Origin: an uncultured Pelagibacteraceae bacterium
GTDB lineage: Bacteria > Pseudomonadota > Alphaproteobacteria > Pelagibacterales > Pelagibacteraceae
Assembly (NCBI GenBank): GCA_902569105.1
Contig: CACFTE010000009.1
Location: 1-48,015, forward strand
Direction: 5' to 3'
DNA length: 48,015 bases
The stretch's first letter is position 1. Each line of letters opens with the position of its first letter. Under the pieces are notes generated by a model. The model did no database searches. It saw only the letters and a program-made list of their open reading frames with translations, and was not told the origin of the DNA. Shown here one piece after another: positions 24,162-42,856 of the stretch. The position numbers and the translations under genes were made by a program.

Positions 24162-24575
24162 ATGAGTGAAACAATAGAACAAAAATGTATCTCTAAAGGA
24201 GTAAAACTTACCGAGCAAAGAAAAATAATTGCCAAAGTAATGTCAGAAGCAAATGATCACCCTGATGTAGATGAATTGTATACTCGTGTTTCAAAAATTG
24301 ATCCTAAAATAAGTATAGCAACAGTCTATAGAACTGTAAAATTGTTTGAAGAGTCAGGAATAGTAGCCAAGCATGATTTCAAAGGTGGAAAAGCAAGATA
24401 TGAAGAGTTGAGCGAGAGTCATCATGATCATCTAATCGATGTTAAAACTGGAGAAATAATTGAATTTGTTGATGAAGAAATTGAAAAACTTCAGAAAAAA
24501 GTTGCAGAAAAATATGGATACGAACTTGTTGATCATAAATTGGAACTTTATGGGGTAAAAAAAAAAAGTGAGTAA
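24162..24575 (+). CDS. fur: Fur-family metal regulator (Fur/Mur type)
   Basis: A 137-residue Fur-family repressor. The winged helix is KLTEQRKIIAKVM ... ISIATVYRTVKLFEESGIV; the metal-binding histidine cluster is ESHHDHLIDVKTGEIIEF. The CxxC pairs that bind structural zinc in E. coli Fur are absent. Alphaproteobacterial members of this branch often sense manganese (Mur), so iron versus manganese cannot be settled here. The gene precedes miaB and overlaps it by eight bases. A second member (Irr) lies at 39545. Confidence 0.9.
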   Translation: MSETIEQKCISKGVKLTEQRKIIAKVMSEANDHPDVDELYTRVSKIDPKISIATVYRTVKLFEESGIVAKHDFKGGKARYEELSESHHDHLIDVKTGEIIEFVDEEIEKLQKKVAEKYGYELVDHKLELYGVKKKSE

Positions 24576-37763: not shown

Positions 37764-38975
37764 TTAAACCTTTTCAAAAATTAAAGTTGCGTTTGTTCCA
37801 CCAAAGCCAAAACTATTGGACATTACTGAATTTAATTCAACATTTTTTTCGGTTTGTGTAACTATAGGGAATTTTTTCGCATCTTCGTCCATTTCGTTTA
37901 TATTTACTGAAGCTGTTATAAAATTATTTTTCATCATAATAAGACTGTATATTGCTTCATGAACTGAAGCAGCTCCCAATGGATGTCCTGATAAAGACTT
38001 AGTTGAACTAATTTTCGGAATTTCAGCTCCAAAAGTTTCTCCAACAGCATTTAACTCTGTTATATCTCCAACCGGGGTTGAGGTTCCGTGGGTATTTAAA
38101 TAATCAATTTTATTTTTTGAGGTTGCAAGTGCCATTTTCATACATCTTATAGCTCCTTCACCAGATGGAGCTACCATATCATATCCATCTGAAGTTGCGC
38201 CATAGCCAGTTAACTCAGCATAAATTTTTGCACCTCTTGCTTTAGCTCTCTCATATTCTTCAAGCACCAATACACCAGCCCCACCAGCAATAACAAATCC
38301 ATCTCTAGTTTTATCATAAGCTCTCGATGCCTTTTCAGGTGTATCATTATATTTAGACGATAATGCTGTCATGGCATCGAACATAGCAGTCATCGCCCAA
38401 TGAATTTCCTCACTTCCTCCTGCGAAGACAATATCCTGTTTGCCCATTTGAATTAGTTCCATTGAATTCCCTATACAGTGACCACTAGTTGCACATGCTG
38501 AACTCATTGTATAATTGGTACCTTTAATTTTAAAAGGTACAGCAAGAGTTGCAGATGCCGTACTGGCCATAGTTCTTGGCACTATGAAAGGTCCCATTAA
38601 TTTAGGAGTTTTTGCTCGTGTTTTATCTGCTGCTAAAATCACGTTCTCTATTGAAGGACCACCTGAACCCATAACAATACCAGTTTTAAAGTTGCTCACG
38701 TCATTTTCCTCTAATCCAGAGTCTTCAATTGCCTCTTTCATGGCTATATAATTATAAGCAGAACCAGAACCCATAAATCTTATTGTTTTTCTATCAATAT
38801 GATCTTCAAGTTTAATATTCGGCTTCCCATGGACGTGACTTTTAAGATTATGTTCTTTATATTCCTCAGAAAATGAAATTCCTGATTTTGAATTAATTAA
38901 AGATTGTTTAACTTCTTCTTGATTATTTCCTAAGCAAGACACAATACCTAATCCTGTAATAACAACTCTTCTCAT
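37764..38975 (-). CDS. fabB: Beta-ketoacyl-ACP synthase I
   Basis: A 403-residue condensing enzyme. The nucleophile is the cysteine in [12 protein letters not shown]; the two catalytic histidines lie in [12 protein letters not shown] and [13 protein letters not shown]. It elongates unsaturated acyl-ACPs from the FabA branch. The start overlaps the fabA stop by one base, implying coupled translation of the unsaturated-fatty-acid pair. Confidence 0.95.
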
Positions 38976-39475
38976 TATTTAAACAATCCAACCTTTAAAT
39001 TTTCAGCAGAATAAATTTTTTTTCCATCAGCTGAAAGGATACCATTTGCAAGCCCAACTGTTGTTTCTCCTTTAATAAGTATTCTTTTCATTTCAATTTC
39101 ATACATTGCCATTTTAACATTTTTTAATACTTCACCAGTAAACTTTACTGCACTAACCCCCAAAGCCCTTCCTCTTCCAGGGTTTCCAAGCCAGCCAAGA
39201 TAAAAACCAACAAGTTGCCACATCGCATCTAGGCCCAAACATCCAGGCATAACCGGATCTTCTTTGAAGTGACAATTAAAAAACCACAAATCATCTTTAA
39301 TGTCTAATTCTGCTTTAATTAATCCTTTTTTATATGCTCCAGTATTTTCGCTAATTTCTGTAATTCTGTCAAACATCAGCATCGGAGGAAGAGGCAACCT
39401 GGCATTTCCTGGTCCAAATAAGCCGCCCTCTCCGCAGTTAATTAGTTCATCGTAACTATAGGAGTTTTTTTTCAT
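38975..39475 (-). CDS. fabA: 3-hydroxydecanoyl-ACP dehydratase/isomerase
   Basis: A 166-residue hot-dog-fold enzyme that makes the cis double bond in anaerobic-type unsaturated fatty acid synthesis. The active-site histidine is in [26 protein letters not shown], which also carries the catalytic aspartate. [10 protein letters not shown] is the usual N-terminal motif. It diverges from irr across 69 bases containing a palindrome that resembles an Irr box. Confidence 0.96.
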
Positions 39476-39525: not shown

Positions 39526-39542
39526 TTTAGAATTATTATAAA
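39526..39542. promoter_or_regulatory. Irr-box-like palindrome before irr
   Basis: TTTAGAA-TTA-TTATAAA lies two bases before the irr ATG. The iron-control element bound by Irr in Rhizobiales is close to TTTAGAA-NNN-TTCTAAA; here one position differs. Its placement at the start codon suggests autorepression, and it may also affect divergent fabA. The consensus is recalled from published regulon work, not computed here. Confidence 0.5.
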
Positions 39543-39544
39543 GT

Positions 39545-39964
39545 ATGAATAAAATTAATATAAATTTTATTGCAAAATTAAGAACTTCTGGTCTTCGTCC
39601 AACGAAACAAAGATTAAAAATCTGTGATATATTATTCAATAGGGAAAAAACCTTCCACTTTTCAATTAATGACCTAACAAAAATTTTAGAAATTGAACAT
39701 AATGAAAAAATTTCATTAGCTACAGTTTATAACACAGTTCACGCTTTCAAAAAAAAAGGTTATTTAAAAGAGATACACATTGGAAATGAAATGTCATATT
39801 TTGATACAAATACATCGTCTCATCATCATTTTTACGATGAGCAGACAAAAGAGTTAACTGATATTAGTTCTAATGAAGTAGAAATAAAAAAAATCCCAAG
39901 TCCTCCTAGTGGAAAAAAAATTGATGGAGCAGAGGTTATCTTCAAAATTTCTAAGAAAATCTAG
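39545..39964 (+). CDS. irr: Irr-type iron/heme-responsive regulator (Fur family)
   Basis: A 139-residue Fur-family protein. LRTSGLRPTKQRLKICDILF and ISLATVYNTVHAFKKKGYLKE form the winged helix. The central SYFDTNTSSHHHFYDEQTKELTDI closely matches rhizobial Irr (YFDTNVTTHHHYY), including the HHH heme-binding motif; the N-terminal Cys-Pro heme motif of some Irr proteins is absent. Irr senses iron through heme status and controls iron uptake, heme and peroxide genes. Position beside fabA is also seen in Rhizobiales, and katG follows on the same strand. Confidence 0.87.
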   Translation: MNKININFIAKLRTSGLRPTKQRLKICDILFNREKTFHFSINDLTKILEIEHNEKISLATVYNTVHAFKKKGYLKEIHIGNEMSYFDTNTSSHHHFYDEQTKELTDISSNEVEIKKIPSPPSGKKIDGAEVIFKISKKI

Positions 39965-39981
39965 TTTATAATCATTCTAAA
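39965..39981. promoter_or_regulatory. Irr-box-like palindrome before katG
   Basis: TTTATAA-TCA-TTCTAAA, one mismatch from the Irr element TTTAGAA-NNN-TTCTAAA and with the mismatch in the opposite arm from the copy before irr. It ends five bases upstream of the predicted katG -35 hexamer, so a bound regulator could touch RNA polymerase from upstream (activation) or block it. Confidence 0.52.
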
Positions 39982-39985
39982 CTAC

Positions 39986-40014
39986 TTGACTTTATATAAC
40001 TAAGGTCCTATATT
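39986..40014 (+). promoter_or_regulatory. Candidate katG promoter
   Basis: TTGACT (39986-39991) and TATATT (40009-40014) lie 17 bases apart, one of the closest sigma-70 matches seen in the window. The start would fall near 40021. A strong ribosome binding site, GGAGG (40027-40031), lies six bases before the katG ATG. Together these suggest katG can be strongly expressed from its own promoter despite following irr. Confidence 0.65.
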
Positions 40015-40025
40015 TTACCTAATAG

Positions 40026-42248
<2,223 letters not shown>

Positions 42249-42262
42249 GAAGGAATAAACTT

Positions 42263-42856
42263 ATGGCGGAAATGAGTTTTGAAGATTTTTACAACGTACC
42301 AGATCTAAAGTTTGATATATCTAGGTTGAGAAAAGATCTAGATAAAGTTCTAGAGAGAAAAAAATTTAAATCTCCTGGAGTAACTCATTTTGGAGCTATT
42401 TCACTAAATAGAGTTCCAAATGATGAAAGTTCTGTTGAAGGTAATAATGTGCGAGGAAAATACTGGACTATTGCTGATGAAACAGGCAAAGAAGTTTCCA
42501 GAGACATTGATATAGATGAATCTAAATATACTGAACTTGTACCAGAGTTTGAGGATACTTATTTCAAGGAGGTTTACGAAACTCTAAAAAATAGATTTAA
42601 ACTTGGACGAGTAAGATTATTACTGAAGGAACCAAGATCCACATTAAGTTGGCATAAAGATCCCGAGCCAAGATTGCATATACCTATTGTTACAAATAAA
42701 GGGTGCATGATGGTAATAGAAAACGTTGCAAAACATATGCCAGCAGATGGAACTGCAACTATCACTAATAATAAAAAATTTCATAATTTTTTTAATGGGG
42801 GAGAGCAAGCAAGAGTACACCTTGTAGCCTGTGTTTTAGAAGATCCTTTCAATTAA
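42263..42856 (+). CDS. Aspartyl/asparaginyl beta-hydroxylase-like 2OG-Fe(II) oxygenase
   Basis: A 197-residue protein starting 14 bases after katG, with an AAGGA ribosome binding site in the gap. The oxygenase core has STLSWHKDPEPRLHIPIV, where His and Asp of WHKD are expected iron ligands, then VIENVAKHMPADGT and KFHNFFNGGEQARVHLVACVL with the distal histidine and a 2OG-binding arginine. Substrate is unknown. Probable cotranscription with katG suggests a link to oxidative or iron stress, but only by position. Its stop overlaps the convergent SH3-protein stop (TTAA). Confidence 0.78.
   Translation: MAEMSFEDFYNVPDLKFDISRLRKDLDKVLERKKFKSPGVTHFGAISLNRVPNDESSVEGNNVRGKYWTIADETGKEVSRDIDIDESKYTELVPEFEDTYFKEVYETLKNRFKLGRVRLLLKEPRSTLSWHKDPEPRLHIPIVTNKGCMMVIENVAKHMPADGTATITNNKKFHNFFNGGEQARVHLVACVLEDPFN

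Follow-up and report, generated by a model that had tools for sequence, protein, structure and literature searches.

Described Irr and PerR systems

In actinobacteria, a Fur-family regulator lies directly before katG in the autoregulated furA-katG arrangement, and we take actinobacterial FurA to belong to another branch of the Fur family than the Irr of SAR11. The Irr box, or iron control element, is assumed here to be the palindrome TTTAGAANNNTTCTAAA. SAR11 bacteria live in sunlit water, where peroxide forms, and carry few regulators. They are among the most abundant marine cells, according to a P. ubique study (PMC2864753).

The Irr regulon of R. sphaeroides resembles the arrangement described here in that it is predicted to be very small (mbfA and ccpA), with both genes serving in oxidative defence; transcription of mbfA starts inside the Irr box, which is consistent with repression (PMC3413700). 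The same paper reports that katE is without an Irr box, is not bound by Irr and is under OxyR control, and that Irr influences catalase indirectly (PMC3413700). SAR11 differs on these points: katG itself bears the box, irr adjoins it, and no OxyR was found in the genomes searched. A second likeness is to PerR of B. subtilis and to the delta-proteobacterial perR-rbr and perR-katG pairs, where a Fur-family regulator likewise lies beside rubrerythrin or katG; in Geobacter a candidate box overlaps the -10 element, and the PerR consensus TTATAATNATTATAA is one mismatch from the SAR11 core TTAGAATNATTATAA (excerpts of PMC545781). B. subtilis PerR also has the same five iron ligands as SAR11 Irr. The SAR11 protein differs in lacking a CxxC motif and in giving its highest model score to Irr. 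B. japonicum Irr shares the H/D/H/H/D site, and its ligand histidine H63 is self-oxidised, as in PerR; it differs in having a Cys-Pro heme motif that generates H2O2 (excerpts of PMC4700492), a motif absent from SAR11 Irr.

No description of boxes at irr-katG or irr-rubrerythrin loci of SAR11 was found in the literature searched, which excluded Rodionov 2006, the likeliest to list SAR11 Irr sites, and no text naming SAR11, katG and Irr together was found among those searched as whole words. Here we report on a palindrome between irr and katG in a SAR11 genome. From comparisons of sequence, we consider it probable that this palindrome is the operator of the adjacent irr and that Irr acts as a PerR-like repressor of katG and of itself, released by peroxide. 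Such a one-regulator, one-target peroxide switch would be a concrete model of H2O2 defence without OxyR, and would also address why lineages differ in carrying katG or rubrerythrin.

The irr-katG locus of the window

The window is a 48,015-nt stretch from an uncultured Pelagibacteraceae bacterium, the genome of which spans 1.04 Mb and is 83.9% complete. Features of the locus are listed in Table 1.

Table 1. Features of the fabA-irr-katG locus (window coordinates)
Feature	Position	Strand	Remarks
fabA, divergent from irr	38975-39475	-	conserved synteny
Twin box TTTAGAATTATTATAAA, predicted autoregulatory operator	39526-39542	+	abuts irr start codon
irr, Fur-family regulator, 139 aa	39545-39964	+	PerR-type ligands H38, D87, H93, H95, D106
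Box A TTTATAATCATTCTAAA, predicted Irr operator	39965-39981	+	upstream of katG -35; pattern scan and alignment
katG -35 TTGACT	39986-39991	+	TTGAC invariant across 6-genome alignment
katG -10 TATATT	40009-40014	+	without the box B found over the -10 in most katG relatives
katG Shine-Dalgarno GGAGG	40027-40031	+	GCGGAGG in 5/6 window-clade genomes
katG, catalase-peroxidase, 736 aa	40038-42248	+	TIGR00198 1171.6 bits, above cut-off

The irr stop codon TAG occupies positions 39962-39964 and box A starts at the next base, followed by CTAC, TTGACT, a 17-bp spacer, TATATT, GGAGG and the katG ATG at 40038. A sequence-only reading of this DNA had described an Irr-box-like palindrome before katG, five bases ahead of TTGACT-N17-TATATT, with GGAGG and katG beyond. 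The palindrome was located at 39965-39981, one mismatch from TTTAGAANNNTTCTAAA, and the coordinates of promoter, ribosome site and gene agree with that description; the interval to TTGACT is 4 bp (CTAC), not five. The centre of box A falls near -48 relative to the predicted katG start, and the box adjoins the -35. Additional to the earlier reading are the boxes over the -10 in relatives and the twin box upstream of irr, which is also one mismatch from TTTAGAANNNTTCTAAA, matches box A on the opposite strand except at its centre, and ends 2 nt short of the irr start codon. The twin box may cover the irr transcription start, and irr mRNA may be leaderless, as no ribosome site is visible between the twin box and the irr start (39526-39545). 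Beyond katG, the next gene (42263-42856) has a weak match to an Asp/Asn beta-hydroxylase domain.

The irr product matched the IrrA model NF045678 best, with 134.7 bits against a cut-off of 150; the PerRA model gave 62.3 bits, and PerR and Fur models fell well below IrrA. Many IrrA loci above the cut-off share the rubrerythrin neighbour described below, and some share fabA. A structure model of the product (mean pLDDT 78.8) matched Fur and PerR equally and so favours neither. When aligned to 2fe3, H38, D87, H93, H95 and D106 line up with the five residues that bind iron in B. subtilis PerR, Asp104 among them, as named in PMC4700492. All five are invariant in 114/114 SAR11 Irr proteins, and an HHH cluster is present in 112/114. 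The CxxC motif of the PerR structural zinc site was found in 0/114, which is why the SAR11 protein was not filed as PerR, and the Cys-Pro heme motif likewise in 0/114. Among 50 other alphaproteobacterial Irr proteins, the D87 equivalent was found in 47 and the other four ligands in all, with Cys-Pro in 0/50. Since other alphaproteobacterial Irr have these ligands and lack Cys-Pro as well, neither trait by itself marks a peroxide sensor. Heme-binding Irr proteins without Cys-Pro are known, according to excerpts of PMC3413700.

Box conservation and genomes without irr

An irr of this type was found in 87/147 family genomes, of which 86 were examined and one with a truncated irr (G096) was excluded; together with 28 loci from a genus search, these made up 114 SAR11 irr loci. 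The gene after irr was katG, of two divergent types, in 76/114 and rubrerythrin in 38/114 (65 and 21 of the family loci, 11 and 17 of the genus-search loci). A divergent fabA lay beside irr in 86/86 family loci. A second set comprised the 80 named loci nearest by Irr, all of which carry the label Pelagibacteraceae, Pelagibacter or Pelagibacterales, in keeping with the placement of the window in this family, and may overlap the 114; fabA adjoined irr in all 80, and the next gene was rubrerythrin in 43, katG in 35 and peroxiredoxin-like in one (L233), the remaining locus meeting a contig end.

A box within two mismatches was present in the gap behind irr in 112/114 loci and in 80/80 of the second set. 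The best box per gap among the 114 had one mismatch in 82, two in 30, three in one and seven in one, the last being a locus with trimmed region limits that showed one mismatch in a separate scan. Dinucleotide shuffles of the gaps reached one mismatch in 0.08% of regions and two in 0.94%; for the irr-katG gap of the window, 0/5000 shuffles reached one mismatch. In the window clade (6 genomes), a 30-nt stretch, CTAGTTTATAATCATTCTAAACTACTTGAC, comprising the box and the -35 was invariant while the spacer between -35 and -10 had drifted, and the twin box was kept in 6/6 apart from two central bases. Conservation upstream of katG in relatives, which the sequence-only reading had named as its test, is thus borne out. 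The box upstream of irr was absent (at least three mismatches) in 33/114 loci, 26 of them of the K55 lineage, so autoregulation is not universal.

Two further features of the gap were seen in individual loci. In L163 (near 3400) operator and reading frame overlap, as the box contains the stop codon of irr. Loci with the 55%-identity katG type (L039, L042, L043 and 12 more) have, ahead of the box, a near-constant TGACAGTTTGTCGCTTG located at the stop codon of irr; its arms GACA/TGTC are retained even where the loop differs (L063).

The bare motif is not rare in AT-rich DNA, and its frequency in the genome proves nothing alone. Within two mismatches, 80 places were found in the whole genome, and a reversed control pattern was commoner still, with 113; in the window there were 2 places against 3.8 expected by shuffling, both flanking irr. 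These counts are what a chance similarity in AT-rich DNA behind a gene with a promoter would lead one to expect, but we give that explanation practically no credence: the box is in place in nearly every irr locus and in every close genome, and on the strength of this conservation and of the shuffles we rejected a chance motif. Its significance comes from position and conservation, not from frequency.

We also looked for a wider regulon. Seven places within one mismatch were found in the genome, and only box A and the twin box lay outside predicted reading frames; the other five (in tyrA-like, smc-like, guaC-like and lptD-like genes and a 75-aa ORF) were rejected as regulon sites, falling as they do within frames. 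Across ten relatives, exact matches to TTTAGAAYNATTATAAA, the common SAR11 form, away from irr comprised four in genes, four at the end of one gene and two intergenic. In four genomes (L128, L129, L130, L131, near 2000-2060) an exact box ends an alanine-dehydrogenase-like gene and is perhaps mere coding sequence. In G004 (L132 1236-1252) an exact box of the SAR11 form lies between genes for a secreted binding-protein-like and a dehydrogenase-like product, and in G014 (L125 2007-2023) a box lies between 1-Cys peroxiredoxin-like and sulfide-quinone-reductase-like genes. The G014 box, which stands ahead of the peroxiredoxin gene, was rejected as a kept regulon site, being within one mismatch in 1/12 genomes and three mismatches off in one more; none of this type was found in the window's own genome. 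As far as boxes show, the Irr regulon appears to be reduced to irr and one exchangeable peroxidase.

Genomes without irr form a natural knock-out set. A katG match without the irr-katG pair occurred in 31 family genomes, of which 20 were examined (the locus of one, G128, being cut off by the contig); the remaining 11 were fragments or left out (G012, G023, G028, G032, G045, G053, G054, G071, G085, G090, G109). In the eight genomes with fabA-katG and no intact irr, the box had decayed in seven (3, 3, 4, 4, 5, 5 and 5 mismatches) and was intact in one, G006 (one mismatch). Where katG lay in other contexts (n=11), the best match had four to five mismatches and 0/11 were intact. The association between irr and box intactness gave Fisher values of 4e-9 and 4e-19, both uncorrected for kinship. 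A link between the box and the adjacent irr is well supported by these comparisons. One of the eight fabA-katG genomes, G130 (L109), shows between the two genes what seems to be a remnant of irr, interrupted by an in-frame stop.

Fur proteins generally bind AT-rich palindromes, and a second Fur-family gene is present in the window at 24162-24575, upstream of a miaB-like frame (NF006999, 107.5 bits, under the cut-off of 146). The box might on these grounds belong to another regulator such as this Fur-like paralogue; yet three genomes that have neither irr nor box (G001, G049 and G077) still carry such a second gene of the Fur family (E 1.7e-7 to 8.2e-10), and we regard such a reader as very improbable. 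LysR-type proteins gave no match in the window's genome at its 83.9% completeness, with a search that was positive in 13/14 controls. No protein of 20 relatives exceeded the cut-off of the OxyR model (best, 60.6 of 329 bits), a cut-off that only 1/14 controls pass; weak LysR-type matches to this model occurred in 18/20 relatives. The earlier proposal that the adjacent irr, and not OxyR, controls katG is therefore favoured in both halves, through the decay of seven of eight boxes in irr-less genomes and through the lack of a detected OxyR, with control itself staying a prediction.

Box position, peroxidase exchange and mode of control

Alignment on the -35 revealed two box sites. Site A lies 3-4 bp ahead of the -35; site B lies between the two promoter elements, and its end ATTATAAA doubles as the -10. 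One half of TTTAGAAYNATTATAAA is changed where it so doubles; the letters shared with the -10 would account for the single mismatch that separates box B from a perfect palindrome (TCTAAA to TATAAA). With thresholds of at most three mismatches for A and two for B, under which a weaker B can still be made out by eye in some 'A-only' loci (L032, L033), and with L068 and L080 trimmed in the count, the box lay over the -10 in 68/76 katG loci. The 80%-identity katG type (n=32) had A in 7, both in 11, B in 13 and neither in one (L069, trimmed). The 55%-identity type had B in 44/44, including 15 loci scored by script as 'B(far)' owing to anchoring on a TTGAC that overlaps the irr stop codon; by eye, these have a weaker -35 (TTGTTT or TTGGAC) at the usual distance. 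Rubrerythrin loci (n=38) had A in 29, B in 5 and both in 4. Where both are present, as in L137-L139 and L018, a by-eye reading places them about 31-32 bp, or three helical turns, apart. The window clade is A-only and has lost box B.

These positions bear on the mode of control. We infer that Irr binds the box, that it represses rather than activates, and that peroxide (or iron loss) is the signal. In the proposed mechanism, one Irr dimer would bind box A beside the katG -35 and another the twin box at the irr start, and bound Irr would hold katG and irr low; peroxide would inactivate Irr, probably through iron at the PerR-type H/D/H/H/D site, and katG would be released. The result would be a local two-site regulon in which an Irr-descended protein acts like PerR and katG is one of several interchangeable peroxidases. 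According to excerpts of PMC4700492, B. japonicum Irr is not oxidised by H2O2 without heme, which speaks against a simple PerR mechanism.

Repression is favoured over activation because most katG loci have a box over the -10, a position in which bound protein should get in the way of polymerase; in addition, the -35 and -10 of the window are already near consensus, so that an activator seems unneeded. On the other side, box B, the arrangement that speaks most plainly for repression, is gone from the window clade, and most katG lineages use a part of their box as the -10 hexamer, which selection would retain in any case. Activation of katG by Irr from the upstream box, with the loss of box B in the window clade marking a change from repressor to activator, would suit the position of box A abutting the -35, the window-clade katG without a box over its -10, and the 29 rubrerythrin loci that are A-only by the thresholds used; the title of Rudolph 2006 reportedly names positive and negative control via the iron control element. 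Given the -10 boxes of the relatives, we hold this alternative to be doubtful at best. The sequence-only reading had left both activation and repression compatible with a box upstream of the -35; repression now appears likelier, and the A-only loci leave room for activation.

The gene behind irr is exchanged within the family. Rubrerythrin occurred in 21/147 family genomes, always behind irr and never together with katG, and a katG match in 96/147, some of them fragments only. In a tree of Irr and FabA built by a quick method from 112/114 loci (two dropped for short FabA; 56/108 inner branches weak), rubrerythrin and katG alternate at least nine times, at least four of these forced by well-supported branches. 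Outside the family, 240 class genomes were searched for IrrA loci, and the best 30 together with 20 picked lower-scoring loci were taken. Of the best 30, 26 have rubrerythrin no more than about 330 nt downstream of irr; among the 20 lower-scoring loci it lay within about 450 nt in 5, katG followed irr in 2, and in L268 a peroxiredoxin lay 431 nt behind irr. In the 26 class irr-rubrerythrin loci, a box with at most two mismatches was found within 300 nt in 16, a count made without a shuffle control, and the other 10 had three to seven mismatches; in L257 and L259 the box had no mismatch. L275 likewise has a mismatch-free TTTAGAANNNTTCTAAA behind irr and ahead of rubrerythrin. These data suggest that the irr-peroxidase pairing is likely old and that katG is one occupant of an old slot.

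The occupant of the slot also weighs on whether Irr here works in its classical way, keeping katG repressed under iron or heme shortage, so that no heme enzyme is made without its heme, and releasing it when heme is plentiful. IrrA is the best family match, the HHH cluster found in nearly all SAR11 Irr is heme-binding in other Irr proteins, and KatG requires heme; but rubrerythrin, a non-heme iron enzyme, occupies the same slot with the same box, and the genome carries a separate Fur-like gene. According to PMC2864753, iron limitation raised the rubrerythrin mRNA of P. ubique HTCC1062 1.57-fold (P 0.025), the opposite of the classical model if the gene order in HTCC1062 is irr-rubrerythrin, as it is in P. 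ubique SCGC AAA795-D22 (L220). The same source gives no significant change in Irr abundance under iron limitation and an irr expression that followed stationary phase (PMC2864753). We judge classical control unlikely.

Release by peroxide being the preferred reading, a broader one can be put forward tentatively, with chances we set somewhat short of even: the slot behind irr would be a socket that takes either of two katG types, a rubrerythrin or a peroxiredoxin, swapped repeatedly under one retained operator, and Irr would in origin be a peroxide regulator devoted mainly to the neighbouring peroxidase, in SAR11 nearly all that is left of its role, where it would stand in for OxyR. The peroxide switch proposed here would also shift the picture of Irr from an iron/heme regulator with stress side effects to a regulator long associated with peroxidases, an association suggested by the rubrerythrin directly behind irr in 26/30 of the best class loci outside the family.

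In L233 (3466 onward), the gene behind irr, named by eye as peroxiredoxin-like, would be a third unrelated peroxidase type, and box-like sequences are present at both A and B. In L019 and other rubrerythrin loci, the next protein has two cysteine-rich, iron-sulfur-like stretches and is perhaps the electron donor of rubrerythrin.
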